Of a stretch of 64,000 bases of DNA, positions 5,527-43,161 are shown in pieces. The stretch is taken from NCBI RefSeq assembly GCF_002797535.1, contig NZ_PGFD01000004.1, positions 124,001 through 188,000 on the forward strand, given 5' to 3'. Both the position numbers and the translations under genes were made by a program. Position 1 is the first letter of the stretch; each line of letters begins with the position of its first letter. The DNA is from Chryseobacterium geocarposphaerae. Its GTDB lineage: Bacteria > Bacteroidota > Bacteroidia > Flavobacteriales > Weeksellaceae. Below the pieces are notes generated by a model that was not told the DNA's origin, searched no databases, and saw only the letters and a list, made by a program, of their open reading frames with translations.

Positions 5527-5817
5527 TTTTAAACCATTAAGAATATTTAAGGCGTTAAGAACTATTAAGAATTTGCAAGCAAATTAAAGGCACGAGCTTA
5601 AGAAATTTATTTCTCTAAAATCATCTTAATTCCTTAATAAAAATCTTAATGATTTAAATCAATATAGAAAGTAAATTGAATTAAAACTTTGTGGTCTTAT
5701 TTAAGTGAAATCGAAGATTCGACGTAGGCCTTTGCGAACTTAAAAATACACATCAAATTTTAAAAAGAAATCTTAGCGTCCTTAGCGTTTAAAAACAACG
5801 CAACAATATTAGAAAAG
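5527..5817. repeat. Intergenic repeat block
   Basis: The block resembles the one at 1777-2132. An imperfect inverted repeat spans about 5530-5660 (AACCATTAAG at one end, CTTAATGATTTAA at the other). After it comes the dispersed GTGAAA...TTTGCGAACTTAAAAA motif at 5700-5755 and CTTAGCG...TTAGCGTTTAAAAACA just before uxaB. No gene or obvious promoter with both elements is seen. Confidence 0.55.
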
Positions 5818-7281
5818 ATGGAAAATCAGATAAAACAAAAATTAAGTCGTGAATTAAACAATTCTCAGGAAAAGCTTCCCATCAAAATCGTACAGTTTGG
5901 TGGCGGAAATTTTATGAGAGGATTCACAGATTATGTGATTGATAAATTAAACAAAGAAGCGGGGTTCAATGCGGGAATTGTAAACGTACAGCCCACTCCA
6001 AATGGTTCGGTTCATAAACTGGAGGAGCAGGATAATTTATATACGCTTTTCACAAGAGGAATTAAAAAAGGAGAAATTATCGATGAAAAACAGGTGATTT
6101 CTGCCATACAGAAATCGATTAATCCTTATACAAACTATGATGAGTTTCTGGCACTGGCAAAAGAAGAAGAATTAGAATTTATCTTTTCCAATACAACAGA
6201 AACAGGAATTGCTTATGACGAAATTGAAAATAATTATCAAGGGCCACACAAAAATTTCCCTGCGAAATTAACGGTTTTATTGTACGAAAGATTTAAGCAA
6301 TTCAACGGAGCTGCTGACAAAGGCTTAAGAATTATTCCTTGTGAACTTATTGAAGATAATGCATTTGTTCTAAGAGATATCACTATTAAATATGCACAGC
6401 TATGGAATTTAGGAGATGAATTTGTGCAATGGATTACACAAAATAATTATTTCCATAATACGCTGGTTGATAGAATTGTACCAGGTTATCCGAAAGACGA
6501 TGTTGAATCTTATGAGAATCAGCTTGATTATGAAGACCAGATGATGGTTGTTTCTGAAACATTCCTGCTTTGGGTGATTCAGGATGCCGGTAATTTAAAG
6601 ACAAGAATTCCTTTTGATCAGATTAACGAGCAGATTTTAGTGGTTGATGATATTCAGCCGTACCGATTAAGGAAAGTAAGAATTCTGAATGGAGGCCACA
6701 CCTTAATGTTGGCTCCGGCAGTTTTATCAGGTAAAGAAACGGTAAAAGAATCCATCTATGATGCTTTTATAGGTAAATTTTTAAGTGAAACCATTTTCAA
6801 TGAAGTTAATCCAACCTTAGGATTAGATATAAACGAATTGAAAGAGTTTGCGGAGGAAGTTTTTGACAGATTCAGAAATCCTTTCATCAAACATTATCAG
6901 GCAAGCATCGCTTTGTATTTTGTTTCAAAATTTAAAGTGAGAGTTCTTCCGAGCCTATTGGGATATATTGAAATTAATAAAAAATTACCGCTGAATTTAA
7001 CGTTCTCTTTGGCGAGTTTAATCAGATTCTATCAGGGAAGTTTTGGTGAAAGATCCTTACCAATCAATGATGAAGAAGCTATTGTTGCTAAATTCAAAGA
7101 GATTTGGGCGAACGAAGATTACGAAAAGGTTGTGGAATTATCATTAAGTGAAACAACTTTTTGGGAAACAGACCTCACTAAGGTTGAAGGCCTTAAGGAT
7201 GCAGTAGTAAAAGCTTTGTGGGAAATAGACCGTAATGGCGTGGAAACTGCATATAACAACTTTATACAATTTTATTCTTAG
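5818..7281 (+). CDS. uxaB: Tagaturonate reductase
   Basis: The 487-aa product is a polyol-type long-chain dehydrogenase that reduces D-tagaturonate to D-altronate with NADH. The N-terminal dinucleotide site reads IVQFGGGNFMRGF. Later family motifs are SNTTETGIAY, PCELIEDNA and the catalytic-region RKVRILNGGHT. It is 6 bp upstream of uxaA, so the two are translated together. It could also accept fructuronate (UxuB-like), but its pairing with altronate dehydratase supports UxaB. Confidence 0.93.
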   Translation: MENQIKQKLSRELNNSQEKLPIKIVQFGGGNFMRGFTDYVIDKLNKEAGFNAGIVNVQPTPNGSVHKLEEQDNLYTLFTRGIKKGEIIDEKQVISAIQKSINPYTNYDEFLALAKEEELEFIFSNTTETGIAYDEIENNYQGPHKNFPAKLTVLLYERFKQFNGAADKGLRIIPCELIEDNAFVLRDITIKYAQLWNLGDEFVQWITQNNYFHNTLVDRIVPGYPKDDVESYENQLDYEDQMMVVSETFLLWVIQDAGNLKTRIPFDQINEQILVVDDIQPYRLRKVRILNGGHTLMLAPAVLSGKETVKESIYDAFIGKFLSETIFNEVNPTLGLDINELKEFAEEVFDRFRNPFIKHYQASIALYFVSKFKVRVLPSLLGYIEINKKLPLNLTFSLASLIRFYQGSFGERSLPINDEEAIVAKFKEIWANEDYEKVVELSLSETTFWETDLTKVEGLKDAVVKALWEIDRNGVETAYNNFIQFYS

Positions 7282-8972: not shown

Positions 8973-9125
8973 TTTGATAAGTAAAGAATTTCATAAAATC
9001 GCATATAAAACTACGGTATATCGTTAATTTAAATATTAAGAATTTCACTAAGTTATTGATAGTTAGTGTTTTGTGATTCACGCATAGTTGTTGGTAACAC
9101 ATATTTATATTTTTAAATAATAATT

Positions 9126-9512
9126 ATGAGTACTAAAGAATTTAAAACGTTTAATATGCCTTGGGAAAAGGTATATGGATATGTACAATCTGTAAAAAAT
9201 GGTAATACAGTATGGATTTCTGGACAGTTGGGGCACGACATGGATGGAAATCTTACAGACGGGATGGAAAACCAGTTCAGGCAGTCGTACAGGAATATTG
9301 AAAAGCTTTTAGCTGAATATGAAATGGGCGCTGGAAATGTTGTGGAAGAAGTAATTTATGTGACAGATATGAAAGAAGGTTTCGAAAGCAGAAAAATAAC
9401 AGGGAAAGAATTTTATGGTGAAGAATGTATTGTGGCAAGTACCATTATAGGAGTAACAGAATTGGCACTTCCAGGTCAGAAAGTAGAAATTAAAATTGTT
9501 GCTAAAAGTTAA
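9126..9512 (+). CDS. RidA family protein (enamine/imine deaminase-like)
   Basis: This 128-aa protein has the YjgF/YER057c/UK114 fold pattern. VWISGQLGHD near residue 30 and NIEKLLAEYEMG-NVVEEVIYVTDM in the middle are typical. RidA proteins hydrolyse reactive enamines. The canonical arginine motif near the C terminus (R-x-x-V) is replaced by ECIVASTIIGVTELALPGQKVEI, so this is probably a non-archetypal subgroup. It has its own gap of 218 bp after uxaA and is followed by a hairpin shared with the LacI gene. Confidence 0.8.
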   Translation: MSTKEFKTFNMPWEKVYGYVQSVKNGNTVWISGQLGHDMDGNLTDGMENQFRQSYRNIEKLLAEYEMGAGNVVEEVIYVTDMKEGFESRKITGKEFYGEECIVASTIIGVTELALPGQKVEIKIVAKS

Positions 9513-9575: not shown

Positions 9576-10604
9576 CTACTTTCTTTTCGAAGACTTTCTA
9601 ATATAAATCTGCGGTTTTAAAACCACTTTTTTCTCAATAGAAACACCAGAAGAATTGTCTTTAATATGGTCTAAAAAGACTTGTCCTGCCATTTGTCCCA
9701 TCGTAACGGGAGTTTGGTCAACTGAGCTTATCGGAAGCTCCATAAACTGGGTGAAAGGTTCATTAGAAAAACCAATAACAGCTACTTCTTCCGGAATCTT
9801 TATTTTACGCTTTTTCAATTCCTGACAGGCACCTAATGCGGCAAAATCACTCGAAGAAAAAATAGCATCCGGAACCGATTTTTTGCTCCAGAGTTTCTTT
9901 ATCGCTTCAATACCGGCATCAATAGAACTTCCGGTAGATATGATGTTATCTTCGTTTACGGGTAAATGATGATCAAGTAAAGCCTGTTTGTAGCCATTTA
10001 AACGGTTTTGATAAATTTCCAGGTTGAGATCCCCTGAAAAATGGCAGATATTTTTGTAGCCTTCCTTGATGAGGTGTTCAGTGGCCATATAACCTCCTCT
10101 GTAATCATCTATAGTTACCGTACTGATCCCCGGAATATCTTTCTTACGGTCAAAAAATATGATCGGGGTGTTGGAAGTGTTTAAAATATGCTGAATATGC
10201 TCTGTATCTACGGTGGTTCTGGAAACAGACATGAAAATTCCGTCAACCTGAGCATTGAGCAATGTATTCAAATGCCTTTTTTCAATATTGACATCTTCAT
10301 GGCTTTGACAGATAATGACATGATAGCCATAGGTAGAAAGTTCTTCTTCGATACCGCGAATAACCGATGAGAAAAAATTGGTGTTTACAAACGGAACAAT
10401 GATTCCTACATTTTTGGTTTCCCCACTTTTTAATGCCTTGGCAAGATTATTCTGCTTGTAGTTCATTTCCTTTGCGGTTTTCACTACAAGTTCTTTCGTT
10501 GCCTGGCTGATTCTCGGATGATTGTTTAATGCCCTTGAAACGGTTGCTACACTTATGTTTAGCTTTTTTGAGATGTCATAAATAGTGGCATTTTTCTTTG
10601 TCAT
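9576..10604 (-). CDS. LacI-family transcriptional regulator
   Basis: The 342-aa regulator has an N-terminal LacI helix-turn-helix (TIYDISKKLNISVATVSRAL, residues 8-27) and a periplasmic-binding-protein-like sensor domain (KNVGIIVPFVNTNFFSSVI, FSSSDFAALGACQELK, VIGFSNEPFTQFM). It faces the hexuronate operon and probably controls it by binding a uronate intermediate. Its -33/-7 promoter is not clear. A TAACGTTA palindrome lies 14 bp upstream of its start. Confidence 0.9.
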   Translation of the reverse strand: MTKKNATIYDISKKLNISVATVSRALNNHPRISQATKELVVKTAKEMNYKQNNLAKALKSGETKNVGIIVPFVNTNFFSSVIRGIEEELSTYGYHVIICQSHEDVNIEKRHLNTLLNAQVDGIFMSVSRTTVDTEHIQHILNTSNTPIIFFDRKKDIPGISTVTIDDYRGGYMATEHLIKEGYKNICHFSGDLNLEIYQNRLNGYKQALLDHHLPVNEDNIISTGSSIDAGIEAIKKLWSKKSVPDAIFSSSDFAALGACQELKKRKIKIPEEVAVIGFSNEPFTQFMELPISSVDQTPVTMGQMAGQVFLDHIKDNSSGVSIEKKVVLKPQIYIRKSSKRK

Positions 10605-38178: not shown

Positions 38179-38487
38179 ATGATGAACTGTATTATTGTAA
38201 ATGAAGAACCTGTGGCAAGAAATGCAATTAAAAAACTTATTGGTAAAACCAAAAGCTTAAAGCTGCTGGCTACTTTTGACGACACCAGGGAAGCCACTAA
38301 TTTTATGATGACCCATATGGTGAACGTTATTTTTTTCGATATCCAAACCTTGGATGCTAATGAAATTGAATTCCTGAAATTCATCCCGGAAGAAACATTT
38401 CTTCATAAGAAAGTACACCCAATTCAGGTTTTCCAACACCTTCGAGAATTGATTCAAAAACTTTATACTTCCAATTCCTTTATTTAA
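38179..38487 (+). CDS. Stand-alone truncated receiver domain
   Basis: The 102-aa product looks like the receiver half of a LytTR response regulator (CIIVNEEPVARNAIKKLIG, then VIFFDIQ with the phospho-acceptor Asp). The usual DxD acidic pair is N-E-E, and the LytTR DNA-binding domain is missing. The middle of the receiver is shortened, and FIPEETFLHKKVHPIQVFQH resembles the end of a receiver. It may be a decayed gene or a phosphate sink for the adjacent kinase. Confidence 0.65.
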   Translation: MMNCIIVNEEPVARNAIKKLIGKTKSLKLLATFDDTREATNFMMTHMVNVIFFDIQTLDANEIEFLKFIPEETFLHKKVHPIQVFQHLRELIQKLYTSNSFI

Positions 38488-38918: not shown

Positions 38919-40436
38919 ATGAAATTTAATTTTTTAAGAAAAGAGAATAAAGTAGTCACAAACTACGAAGGTGCAAAGGCTTACACAATGACACCTGCAG
39001 AAGAATTATATAGTGCTGTTGTTACAACAGGATTATCAAACGCTACCTATGAAAAGGGAAATGACAGATTGGTCAGAATCCAGTCTCTGATTCTGAAAAA
39101 CGATCCGGAATTCGTTGCAAAATTGGCGGTTTATGCGAGAAAAGATATGCACTTGCGTTCAATTCCATTGGTTTTGACGACCGAATTGGCAAAACAGACT
39201 TCGGGTACAGACTTGGTAAGCAGAACTGTTGAAGGAGTGATCCAAAGAGCGGATGAAATCACGGAATTATTGGCATATTACCAATTGGCAAACGAAAGAA
39301 CAGATTTGAAAAAATTGAACAAACTTTCAAAACAAATTCAGAAAGGTTTGGTAAAATCATTCAATAAATTTGATGAATACCAGTTCGCAAAATACAACAG
39401 AAAAGCAGAAGTAACCTTGAAAGATGCCTTGTTTTTGGTTCACCCGAAGGCAAAAGATGAAAATCAACAGGCTATTTTCAACAAGATCGTCAAGGATTCG
39501 TTAGAAACTCCGTACACTTGGGAAGTAGAACTTTCAGTGTTGGGTCAGACAAAATTTGCGGATGAAGCAGAAAGAAAATCAGCTTTCAAAAACAAATGGG
39601 AAGAACTGATTTTCAGCAACAAGCTGGGTTATATGGCAACATTGAGAAACCTTAGAAATATCCTGGAAGCCAACGTTTCATCAGATGCGATGTACAAAGT
39701 GTGTAACTATCTGTCGGATGAAAAAGCGGTGAGAAATTCAAAGCAATTGCCATTCAGATTTTTGGCGGCGTACAGAGAATTGAAAAATATAGATTCAAAA
39801 TATACCTCATCCATCATGGAAGCATTGGAAAATGCGGTGATGATCAGTGCTAAAAACATCAAAGGTTTTGGTTTTGATACTTCGGTTGTGATCGCGGCAG
39901 ACGTATCCGGTTCGATGCAACAACCTGTTTCTCCGAAATCTAAAGTGTTGTTGTATGATATCGGTTTACTGATGTCGATGATGCTGCAGTCACAATGTAA
40001 AAATGTGATTACAGGTATGTTCGGTGACACCTGGAAAAGAGTTCCGATGCCAAAGAGCGGTATTTTGACCAACGTAGATGCTTTCTACAAAAGAGAAGGT
40101 GAGGTGGGGTATTCCACAAACGGTTATTTGGTAATTGAAGATTTGCTTAACAGACGTGAAAAAGTGGATAAAGTAATGTTGTTTACCGATACACAACTGT
40201 GGAACAGCAACGGAACCCGAAATTCTTTTGAAGATTCATGGAATCGATATAAAAACATCAATCCAAATGCAAAATTATATATTTTTGACTTGGCGGGTTA
40301 CGGAAAACAACCGTTAGATGTCAGAAAAAATGATGTATACCTTATTGCAGGTTGGTCCGACAAAATTTTTGACGTATTGAATGCTTTGGAAGACCGAAAA
40401 TCTGCCGTGGAAATGATTAAAAAAGTAGTGCTGTAA
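38919..40436 (+). CDS. rsr: TROVE-domain protein, Ro60/Rsr homologue
   Basis: The 505-aa protein has an N-terminal HEAT-like TROVE ring (FLRKENKVVTNYEGAKAY at the start, then PEFVAKLAVYARKDMHLRSI, IPLVLTTELAKQ). A C-terminal vWA domain with intact MIDAS follows, VIAADVSGSMQQ, with Asp328, Ser330 and Ser332. Ro60 proteins bind 3' ends of misfolded RNAs in the ring and Y RNAs on the outside. The adjacent Y-RNA-like array and the shared operator make an Rsr-Y RNA system here. Confidence 0.93.
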   Translation: MKFNFLRKENKVVTNYEGAKAYTMTPAEELYSAVVTTGLSNATYEKGNDRLVRIQSLILKNDPEFVAKLAVYARKDMHLRSIPLVLTTELAKQTSGTDLVSRTVEGVIQRADEITELLAYYQLANERTDLKKLNKLSKQIQKGLVKSFNKFDEYQFAKYNRKAEVTLKDALFLVHPKAKDENQQAIFNKIVKDSLETPYTWEVELSVLGQTKFADEAERKSAFKNKWEELIFSNKLGYMATLRNLRNILEANVSSDAMYKVCNYLSDEKAVRNSKQLPFRFLAAYRELKNIDSKYTSSIMEALENAVMISAKNIKGFGFDTSVVIAADVSGSMQQPVSPKSKVLLYDIGLLMSMMLQSQCKNVITGMFGDTWKRVPMPKSGILTNVDAFYKREGEVGYSTNGYLVIEDLLNRREKVDKVMLFTDTQLWNSNGTRNSFEDSWNRYKNINPNAKLYIFDLAGYGKQPLDVRKNDVYLIAGWSDKIFDVLNALEDRKSAVEMIKKVVL

Positions 40437-41402: not shown

Positions 41403-41596
41403 AACAAAATAAAAACAACCGATGCCGTAAGAAAAGAATTTCTTCGATTTCCACTTGAACAAGAGTCTTTTCGATGTATTGCTCGGTTTAAACTAACCAA
41501 TGTCGTTATCATAAGAGTTTCATCGTCAAACTTCCAATTTGAACAACATTCAAAGCTCTTATAATTTGTTACTTGGTTTTTAAAATAAATTTCAAC

Positions 41597-41632
41597 TGCG
41601 TAAAAAGAATGCGCACTGAAGTGATAATTTTG
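41597..41632 (+). promoter_or_regulatory. Shared operator/promoter, copy 4 (CxxC protein and Y-RNA array)
   Basis: TGCGTA-N7-TGCGCA (41597-41615) is followed after 9 bp by the -7 box TAATTTTG (41625-41632). It is the most symmetric of the four copies. Confidence 0.77.
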
Positions 41633-41653
41633 CTTCAACAAAAAACAATAACC

Positions 41654-41711
41654 ATGAACTACTATAAAAAATGTCTTAAAGGAACACTGTATTGAGGTTA
41701 ATACTCAATAC
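41654..41711 (+). promoter_or_regulatory. Leader with 13-codon ORF and hairpin
   Basis: A small ORF (41654-41695, MNYYKKCLKGTLY) ends inside a perfect 8-bp stem GTATTGAG-GTTAATA-CTCAATAC (41689-41711). This stem ends 2 bp before the start codon of the next gene. The layout resembles translational coupling or attenuation, and the 7-nt loop also resembles an anticodon loop. Confidence 0.5.
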
Positions 41712-41713
41712 TT

Positions 41714-41944
41714 ATGAAAAAATTAAAGTCATTAAGACGAGCTTTCGGAATCAATGAACAAGGGTTAATTGATTTTCCGAAGAAAATTTCAAATGTCCAG
41801 ATTTCCAGAATTTTATACGGAGATGAAATGGGATGCTCCTGGTGTTTTCCACATGGCATTGAAACTATTAATTCAAAAGAAATTAAGTTTCAGAGAAATT
41901 GGAAAAAATACAGAAAAACCCAATGGAAAGACTTAAAAAAGTAA
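41714..41944 (+). CDS. Small basic CxxC protein, 76 aa
   Basis: The product is highly basic, with SLRRAFGINEQGLIDFPKKI at the start, a central GCSWCFPHGIET and a Lys/Arg/Trp-rich tail (NWKKYRKTQWKDLKK). The CSWCFPH motif could bind metal and the basic parts RNA. The family is not recognised. It is the only protein gene between the shared promoter and the Y-RNA array. Its stop codon overlaps the first array unit, so one transcript probably carries both. Confidence 0.7.
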   Translation: MKKLKSLRRAFGINEQGLIDFPKKISNVQISRILYGDEMGCSWCFPHGIETINSKEIKFQRNWKKYRKTQWKDLKK

Positions 41945-42070
41945 GTGTCGTAAAACAGAGTTTCTTCGTTAAGGAGCGGTTATACAGGTTCGAGTCCTGT
42001 TTCCGAACATTTGGAATGACGTAATTGGCAGCGTGCCGTATACAAAGTCTCTGTTTGATTTTTTACCTTA
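41943..42070 (+). ncRNA. Y-RNA-like unit A (permuted tRNA mimic)
   Basis: The unit starts AAGTGTCGTA. Stem AAACAGAG/CTCTGTTT (41953-41960 with 42048-42055) is followed by TTTCTTCG. The core has T arm ACAGG-TTCGAGT-CCTGT, then acceptor-like TTCCGA-ACAT-TTGGAA capped by four bases, then a D-like arm ACG-TAATTGGCAG-CGT. This is the order T arm, acceptor, D arm, as in tRNA-mimicking bacterial Y RNAs. It ends TTTTTTACC. Confidence 0.78.
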
Positions 42071-42084
42071 CTTTAAAATAATCG

Positions 42085-42150
42085 GATGCCGTAAAAAAGA
42101 GTTACTTCTACTTTACATTGAAACATAATCTCTTTTTAGAAATTGCTCGA
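42085..42150 (+). ncRNA. Y-RNA-like unit B (short form)
   Basis: GATGCCGTA, stem AAAAAGAG/CTCTTTTT (42094-42101 with 42130-42137) and TTACTTC are present, but the loop is only about 28 nt and has no tRNA-like arms. The end is ATTGCTC. It is a minimal unit of the same design. Confidence 0.6.
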
Positions 42151-42180
42151 TTTTAAAATCATTATCTAAAAACAAAAGTC

Positions 42181-42312
42181 AAGTGTCGTTTTAGAATCAT
42201 ACTTCGAGATTGAATAAACATTGGGTCGCAGGTTCGATTCCTGTTTTTTCTCGAAAGGAGAAGTAGCTCAGAGGGTAGAGCAAATGCACGGAAGATTCCA
42301 TAATTATTACCT
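42181..42312 (+). ncRNA. Y-RNA-like unit C (permuted tRNA mimic)
   Basis: AAGTGTCGT, stem GAATC/GATTC, and TACTTCG are seen. The core has T arm GCAGG-TTCGATT-CCTGT, acceptor-like TTTCTC-GAAAG-GAGAAG, then a canonical D arm TAGCTCAGAGGGTAGAGCA. It ends TAATTATTACC. Confidence 0.75.
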
Positions 42313-42330
42313 TGATTTGAACAATAAAAG

Positions 42331-42433
42331 AGTGTCGTTAGAGAAAACTTACTTCGGTTAATCTTATGATGTTGGTTCGACTCCAGAATAAATCTGAAAA
42401 TGGTTTATATAAAGAGTTTTCTCGTCTGTTGCC
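42331..42433 (+). ncRNA. Y-RNA-like unit D
   Basis: AGTGTCGTTA, a perfect 9-bp stem GAGAAAACT/AGTTTTCTC (42341-42349 with 42415-42423), and TTACTTCG are present. The core keeps a T-loop (GTTGG-TTCGACT-CCAG) but little else of a tRNA. It ends CGTCTGTTGCC. Confidence 0.68.
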
Positions 42434-42454
42434 TCTTTAATAAAATCACAAATA

Positions 42455-42632
42455 AGTGTCGTAGAGAAAGGTTACTTCGTAACTATAACGGTCCTAAGGT
42501 AGCAAAATTCGGGTGACCGAATTAGTGAGGTTGGGTTGAAAACCAACTGGGCAAAAGTTTTCGAAAGAAGACGCAAGTCTTTCGCAGAGCGGCGCTCTGA
42601 AAAGAGCATAAATACCTTTTTCGTCTTTTACC
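42455..42632 (+). ncRNA. Y-RNA-like unit E carrying a 23S rRNA segment
   Basis: AAGTGTCGTA, stem GAGAAAGGT/ACCTTTTTC (42464-42472 with 42614-42622), and TTACTTCG are present. The core starts with the universal 23S rRNA stretch ACTATAACGGTCCTAAGG and its flanks (42480-42510, helix 69-71 region, nearly an I-CeuI site). Three hairpins follow: GTTGGGTT-GAAA-ACCAAC, AAGAC-GCAA-GTCTT and CAGAGCG/CGCTCTG, two of them with GNRA loops. It ends CGTCTTTTACC. Confidence 0.75.
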
Positions 42633-42656
42633 TTATCTCTTCAAAATAAAAATACA

Positions 42657-42799
42657 AGTGCCGTAGAATAGTGTTACTTCGCTCATCACGACGGGGTCAC
42701 GGGTTCGAGTCCCGTCTTTTCCATCATAAAACACAAAACTGATATAGGAAAAGTAGCTCAGTTGGTTAGAGCACGACATTACGCTTTTTGATTGTTGCC
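42657..42799 (+). ncRNA. Y-RNA-like unit F (permuted tRNA mimic)
   Basis: AAGTGCCGTA and TTACTTCG are present. The lower stem is weaker (AGTGT/ACGCT). The core is the clearest mimic: T arm ACGGG-TTCGAGT-CCCGT, acceptor 3' strand CTTTTCC, a linker, acceptor 5' strand GGAAAAG, and D arm TAGCTCAGTTGGTTAGAGCA. It is a complete tRNA minus the anticodon arm, circularly permuted. It ends GATTGTTGCC. Confidence 0.82.
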
Positions 42800-42816
42800 T
42801 TGTTAAAAAATAATAG

Positions 42817-42944
42817 AAGTGTCGTAGAAAAAAGTTACTTCGTTACCATTGGAAGGGGAGGAATAATGTAGTCAGTTATTCTGGCAAGATTATCCGGTTC
42901 GACTCCGGCATAACGCTGCCCCATTACTTTTTTCGATAATTATC
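42817..42944 (+). ncRNA. Y-RNA-like unit G
   Basis: AAGTGTCGTA, a perfect 9-bp stem GAAAAAAGT/ACTTTTTTC (42827-42835 with 42926-42934) and TTACTTCG are present. The core has GGGG...CCCC closing, a GAATAA/TTATTC hairpin and a T arm CCGG-TTCGACT-CCGG, in non-permuted order. It ends CGATAATTATC. Confidence 0.7.
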
Positions 42945-43161
42945 TTTTATTTCCTCTCTAAGTTTTCTATCCTCTCCAAAATATTGGCGAGGATATTTTT
43001 TGTTCAAACGAAAAGTAACCGATTATTTTTTTGTAATGCAATTTTTTTATTACCTGAAATACGAATGAATATCAGATTCTTTCAATTCCTTGCGTGAAGT
43101 TTGTATATTTGGAAACTGAGAGTGACACTATAAAAAGAATTCGTTAAAATAAATAAAAAGA
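42945..43161. other. Intergenic gap, 217 bp
   Basis: AT-rich sequence. GAGAGGATAGA-like repeats (CCTCTCTAAG, CCTCTCCAAA, GGCGAGGATATTTTT) may act as an imperfect terminator at 42953-43000 for the array. TGTATATTTGG near 43102 could be the -7 box for the MBOAT gene. Confidence 0.4.

Follow-up and report, generated by a model that had tools for sequence, protein, structure and literature searches.

The window, the whole 64,000-nucleotide stretch of DNA analysed here, is Chryseobacterium-like and encodes an Rsr/Ro60 homologue followed by an array of nine units that share one design. The features of the locus are given below, with the basis of each in parentheses.

38919..40436, + strand: Rsr/Ro60 homologue of 505 aa with TROVE and vWA domains (Pfam)
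about 41415-41490, + strand: Y1, minimal hairpin unit, class cl1 (scanner, fold)
about 41494-41580, + strand: Y2, minimal hairpin unit, cl1 (scanner, fold)
41714..41944, + strand: conserved ORF of 76 aa inside the array (orthologues, codon-position differences)
41938..42073, + strand: Y3, probable permuted tRNA mimic (T arm, acceptor-like hairpin, D-arm-like hairpin), subclass s1 (scanner, reading, fold)
42079..42155, + strand: Y4, minimal hairpin unit, cl1 (scanner, fold)
42178..42318, + strand: Y5, permuted tRNA mimic (YrlA match RF02553, acceptor test)
42326..42440, + strand: Y6, T-arm-only core, s3 (scanner, fold)
42449..42640, + strand: Y7, mimic of 23S rRNA helices 69-71, cl3 (sequence match, alignment)
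42478..42510, + strand: segment of Y7, 33-nt copy of 23S rRNA (32/33 identity)
42652..42806, + strand: Y8, permuted tRNA mimic (YrlA match RF02553, acceptor test)
42812..42950, + strand: Y9, GGGGAGGAAUA..T-arm..CCCC unit, cl2, usually last in the array (alignment, model R2)
42968..43001, + strand: terminator-like hairpin TATCCTC..GAGGATA followed by T6, after Y9 (read by eye; absent from the list of the terminator scan, in which the loop limit was 8)

The protein encoded by rsr matches the Pfam models TROVE (3e-29) and vWA_Ro60 (9.6e-7; 29.3 bits against a cut-off of 27.7), both above the curated cut-offs, and by these matches the Ro60/Rsr homologue noted beside the array in the first-pass annotation is real. 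Among TROVE proteins of solved structure it was matched by 9l5y/9kop (8e-29) and by Ro, 1yvp (0.0023). It scored 26.5 bits against the NCBIfam Rsr equivalog cut-off of 900 and is thus distant from the Rsr proteins that have been studied. It is 94% identical (best segment) to the Rsr of C. taiwanense (L004), where two genes that lie 3′ of the window array are also found 3′ of the array. The array starts about 1 kb past the rsr stop codon, and the gap contains an ORF of 228 aa that is present at only 3 of 91 related loci. Before rsr, and after a histidine kinase, an ORF of 102 aa (38179-38487) shows a partial match to the response-regulator receiver domain that falls below the Pfam cut-off (23.4 against 30.2 bits). 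At two related loci a Flavo-1 RNA (RF01705) lies directly 3′ of rsr on the opposite strand (L004 7598-7673; L007 7568-7657, - strand). Relatives of the window Rsr, all at <60% identity, are encoded by 95 of 50,697 phage records, including phages of Bacteroides and Brevundimonas and human-gut phages.

Seven units of one design had been recognised at first inspection. These were confirmed, together with the stem pairs named for them, and two extra minimal units, Y1 and Y2, were found upstream, extending the array to nine (41415-42950). In every unit an outer stem is followed by a 5′ UG-Y-C-G motif, an inner stem, the core, the partner of the inner stem and a 3′ UU-R-C motif (UUAUC in Y9), and each unit closes on its own outer stem. 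The best 80 of 307 Rsr relatives in species genomes served as comparison loci. Across 79 arrays (78 of the 80 loci and the window) 493 units were detected, 1-14 per array with a median of 6; none were found in L025 and L048, whose contigs end 0.2 and 1.7 kb past rsr. A CUUCG-like stretch is present near the start of the core in 465 of the 493. The Y-R pair covaries over these units (U-A 220, C-G 231, U-G 29, C-A 5, other 8); they are related sequences and not independent counts, yet both pair states are found inside single arrays. This is the pattern expected if the lower stem is that of a Y RNA and holds a single bulged C. The units thus carry a lower stem with the bulged-C Ro60-binding motif, the equivalence to the vertebrate site being assigned by reading (we take the lower stem to correspond base by base to that of hY1), and they are coded at the rsr locus.

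The scanner found seven of the nine window units and missed Y5 and Y8, which have short inner stems and were placed by reading and by YrlA matches; its counts are therefore lower bounds. On the + strand of the array regions 472 of 670 TGYCGY sites passed (76 of 81 loci; the other five have contigs that end early or rsr elsewhere in the locus), against 2 of 113 on the - strand and 7 of 139 and 9 of 171 on the two strands upstream of rsr. Further downstream 9 of 69 sites passed, and some arrays may extend there. Among the 31 singleton units some are probably false matches (e.g. L007_1, L079_5).

Clustering of the cores gave a tRNA-like superclass (225 units, 77 loci; T-loop pattern in 167), minimal hairpins (129 units, 63 loci), the Y9 class (58 units, 58 loci), a 23S class (18 units, 18 loci) and three smaller classes, cl4 (n=14), a further T-arm class (n=12) and a short class (n=6). 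The tRNA-like superclass splits into subclasses with differing D arms, plus T-arm-only forms. The first-pass annotation had overlooked that the cores are mimics of tRNA and 23S rRNA and that two core types resemble the two known types of bacterial Y RNA. The cl4 core (14 loci, e.g. L004 about 9006-9130) is built around UCCYGAAUAACAGUAAGGA and, by eye, may contain a loop-E-like motif; no Rfam match was obtained in L004, the locus of one cl4 member.

Y5 and Y8 both contain the permuted tRNA arrangement of T arm, 7-bp acceptor and D arm, with 7/7 acceptor pairs in each. In Y5 the T arm (42228-42244) precedes acceptor strands 42245-42251 and 42256-42262 and a D arm from 42263. In Y8 the T arm (42699-42715) precedes the 3′ acceptor strand (42716-42722); the partner of that strand (42747-42753) is directly followed by the D arm (42754-42773), which is identical over 20 nt to the D arms of host Asn/Met tRNAs. 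The other seven window units did not pass the acceptor test, Y3 among them; the test demanded a loop of at least 3 nt. The acceptor halves are joined by a tight loop in some units (CGAA in window Y5; UUCG, by eye, in L089). Both Y5 (32.9 bits, E 7.9e-5) and Y8 (36.0 bits, E 1e-5) match the YrlA model RF02553 at about half its gathering score of 69, and matches below the cut-off also occur in other arrays and in a viral contig, the best elsewhere at 44.4 bits. Of the 375 T arms in the window and the 80 loci, 154 are followed by an acceptor partner (at least 6/7 pairs) and then a D arm; 20 shuffles in which acceptor strands were exchanged between T arms gave a mean of 63.9 and a maximum of 74, a control that is itself not low. 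The passes come chiefly from two subclasses, s0 (46 of 146) and s2 (35 of 146), with 44 more in units missed by the scanner, and are rare in other subclasses (s1 5, s5 3, s7 2, s6 1). A Y9-class unit occurs together with a unit of a subclass labelled as permuted (s0, s1, s2, s5, s6, s7, cl5) in 54 of 79 arrays.

Two accounts of the tRNA-like cores were rejected. Recent capture of whole tRNA halves is at odds with the best host-tRNA matches of the window units, which cover only 18-22 nt. For isotype-specific mimicry the D arms are too alike: depending on the subclass, the best matches in a set of 40 distinct tRNA sequences, taken from a genome that has 66 tRNA matches, are Lys, Asn/Met/Gly or, for a few D arms, Leu tRNAs. 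The viral contig mentioned above (L089, 3995-7016; 63.7 kb) carries rsr (58% identical), two tRNA genes, an ORF that by reading resembles a homing-type endonuclease, and four Y units of the same design, also by reading, one of them the UUCG-closed permuted tRNA that gave the 44.4-bit YrlA match.

The structure of the Y9 class was examined in an alignment of 34 of its 58 members. Pairing was seen in 97.5% of cells, and 20 of 28 pairs have changed on both sides, against a shuffled mean of 11.0 (sd 1.4) two-sided pairs and pairing in 38-54% of cells with slid partners. Helices 1 and 2 are biased in this comparison by the scanner, which selected the inner stem and weighted the outer stem; core helices 3-5, outside scanner selection, covary too. 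The stem covariation put forward at first inspection is therefore seen on both stem sides and beyond the shuffled control. The class tends to close the array: in 54 of 58 cases no class 0-6 unit follows it. Model R2 (Y9 class) also matches distant Bacteroidota arrays, and in one relative, L181, it matches 5712-5831 at 62.7 bits. RF01053, the Deinococcus Y RNA model, matches the same stretch at 41.6 bits (E 4.9e-6) against its cut-off of 80, and the RF01053 search of window Y9 gave no match. The link of Y9 to the Deinococcus Y RNA is indirect, through this relative only.

The Y7 segment matches the genome's own 23S rRNA at 32/33 positions (96.97%; E 8.7e-9, whole genome), over helices that we take to be H69, H70 and H71. 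When 18 relatives are aligned, the AACGGUCCUAAGGUAGC stretch keeps 14 of its 16 columns invariant; for the rest of the trimmed unit the figure is 49 of 91. The H69-like hairpin is paired in 98.6% of cells, the short H71-like hairpin in 100%, and a GC/GC pair is kept at the H70 location. Six of the 18 relatives have a shortened H69 loop, so that the 3′ strand and junction form the more conserved part of the mimic. Model R1 of the 23S-type unit matched in 15 of 246 family genomes and 4 of 296 order genomes, one unit per genome under strict filters, and in both sets the unit is confined to the same genus. A further example lies on L074, a contig that was binned as Limnohabitans and encodes an Rsr of 69% identity. 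That contig carries, at about 10177-10367, a tRNA-like gene with a 7-bp acceptor and a T arm in which, by reading, a long unusual insert replaces the anticodon region.

Further rRNA mimics were sought by comparison with the genome's own 16S and 23S rRNA; the array regions covered were those of the window, L089, the 80 loci and such phylum loci as have an rsr. At >=30 bits only the H69-71 segment recurs (18 loci); three single matches (L074 and L078, both inspected, and L175) lie outside recognised units. A 35-nt string taken from the 23S unit did not occur in the viral contigs scanned. A group I intron insertion site is presumed to lie in 23S rRNA near the copied segment; an intron or homing-site origin of the segment was rejected, no intron model matching at E<=1 in the window array, L004, L007 or L074.

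The 76-aa ORF has orthologues at 38 of 91 loci, and the differences by codon position (515/314/989 in 37 pairs) show that it is under coding constraint. It was found in 33 of 246 family genomes. In 32 of these it follows a same-strand TROVE match at 1.3-3.7 kb, and 13 of the 33 matches include a single stop codon. The protein is basic and single copy in the genome. Searches of Pfam, NCBIfam and PHROG gave no match within the limits applied, and many relatives carry, in the sources they come from, the name phosphate ABC transporter protein. Its AlphaFold model (mean pLDDT 47.6) was of no use. The stop codon of the ORF overlaps the outer stem of Y3, and the protein is a candidate RNP component.

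The units recur near TROVE genes in relatives, as the covariance-model search suggested earlier was to reveal. In all 15 genomes that have it, the 23S-type unit is preceded by a same-strand TROVE match (1.6-4.1 kb), and so are strong Y9-class matches (R2 >=88 bits) in 59 of the 60 genomes, among 246, that have them; over both groups the distance from TROVE to unit is 1.5-6.3 kb. The exception, G226, retains a single unit whose UGYCG motif is, by eye, broken, and no rsr lies close to it; the sole TROVE match of that genome is distant and sits on a different contig. R2 matches in genomes lacking any TROVE were seen in G111 (two intact-looking units) and G193 (one weak match), and a strong Y9-class match was not found in 11 of 70 genomes with a stronger TROVE match. 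In the phylum survey TROVE was found in 24 of 296 genomes, and the Y9 model matched 12 of the 18 TROVE loci examined (18 of the 24 were taken).

The gap between detected units has a median of 19 nt. In 37 of 79 arrays a terminator-like site lies within about 160 nt past the final detected unit, and among the 47 arrays whose final detected unit belongs to the Y9 class the count is 33. This compares with 14 of 414 same-sized windows after other units and 19 of 395 random windows upstream of rsr. Such sites being far commoner after the last unit than after inner ones, we infer one transcript, from which the units would be released by processing. The promoter search gave sigma-70-type matches and 18 matches at 16 loci, three on the reverse strand, to what we assumed to be the Bacteroidetes promoter pattern, with no clear start.

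The covariation of motif and cores and the linkage to TROVE support the initial proposal of Y-RNA-like, structured, modular units tied to Rsr, and the identification of the array units as Y RNAs is strong. The locus is probably an Rsr-serving Y RNA operon whose swappable mimic modules recruit or distract tRNA- or rRNA-handling proteins. A single transcript would carry nine Y RNAs for the neighbouring Rsr. The common lower stem with its Ro60-binding signature (G-C, Y-R pair, bulged C, G-U) would dock these RNAs on the Rsr ring, and the upper effector modules would differ: permuted tRNA in Y5, Y8 and probably Y3, T arm only in Y6, Deinococcus-type in Y9, 23S H69-71 in Y7 and almost none in Y1, Y2 and Y4. 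Each module would bind the protein that normally handles the copied RNA, PNPase by precedent for the known types and tRNA- or 23S-modifying or processing enzymes for the others, and Rsr would be tethered to, or shielded from, different partners. A PNPase gene is present in the genome. Published work describes a complex of Rsr, Y RNA and PNPase, modification of YrlA by DusA/TruB, and the bulged C as the Ro60 site. By analogy, an adaptor mechanism combining Rsr binding with recruitment by mimicry is the suggested mode of action. The first-pass annotation had spoken of guides or decoys. No support was found for guides: the recognisable cores copy tRNA and rRNA in sense, and the search gave no minus-strand rRNA match of >=30 bits; decoys are possible, with tethers (adaptors) at least as likely by precedent.

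A reading to which we give a minor share of belief is that the RNAs act only as gates or decoys, capping the Rsr cavity or soaking up tRNA- and rRNA-binding enzymes, with modules that arose by drift after the capture of scraps. Y RNAs as gates are known from the literature; the gain and loss of units between species is patchy, as the range per array indicates, and the near-coreless minimal units are common. However, the cores covary and are conserved across families, and conservation is higher in the 23S segment than elsewhere in its trimmed unit. It is much less probable that the units serve in cis, as leader or processing elements within one long mRNA, and not as separate Rsr-bound RNAs. The short gaps, the few internal terminators or promoters and the overlap of the ORF stop with Y3 would fit such elements, but every unit is self-closing, with its own outer stem and Ro60-type motif, and strong Y9-class units occur in nearly twice as many family genomes as the 76-aa ORF. 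Degenerate debris of tRNA or rRNA genes, or functionless mobile repeats, would account for the resemblance of the cores to tRNA and 23S pieces and for the variable copy number, but this is hardly credible, being already contradicted by the both-sided stem covariation, the bias of the motif to one strand and the strong matches at one rsr-tied locus per genome.

On the preferred reading of an Rsr-serving operon, Rsr would be a general platform whose partner is chosen by the RNA, from many Y RNAs with distinct mimic modules, one of them an rRNA copy. A fuller version, which we hold tentatively and at somewhat below even chance, is that Rsr works with a one-operon library of swappable RNA adaptors that imitate different cellular RNAs, that the H69-H71 copy links Rsr to a 23S-specific enzyme or to the immature 50S, and that the 76-aa protein belongs to the particle. 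Which protein binds each module is a directly testable prediction. A further testable prediction is that the 23S mimic might explain the published roles of Rsr in rRNA maturation and decay.

The 2014 YrlA paper reportedly found Ro60 genes accompanied by Y RNAs in >250 bacteria and phages, every species having one or more of the tRNA-like kind; given that survey, loci with several Y RNAs would be partly known. The rRNA-copying Y RNA would be the new part. Apart from the primary YrlA and RYPER papers, the literature searched, as far as its text was accessible, reports no such array and no rRNA-mimicking Y RNA; the bacterial Y RNAs it describes mimic tRNA and tether one nuclease.

Like the vertebrate Y RNAs that bind Ro60, the units have a lower stem with a single bulged C; no common upper domain was seen. 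The core of the Y9 class, GGGnGGA..hairpin..CCGG-GUUCGAYU-CCGG..CCC(C/G), resembles via L181 the Y RNA of Deinococcus radiodurans, which acts as the PNPase tether in RYPER. It differs in that the RF01053 model does not match window Y9 and in that Y9 is one of nine RNAs. With YrlA the units share a lower stem closing a permuted tRNA domain of T arm, acceptor and D arm, coded near rsr, whereas the window units score below the Rfam cut-off, and several tRNA mimics and other core types stand in one array. With helices 69-71 of 23S rRNA, Y7 shares its near-identical segment and a similar order of hairpins, whereas H71 is replaced in Y7 by a short GNGA-capped hairpin and the whole is set in a Y RNA frame.
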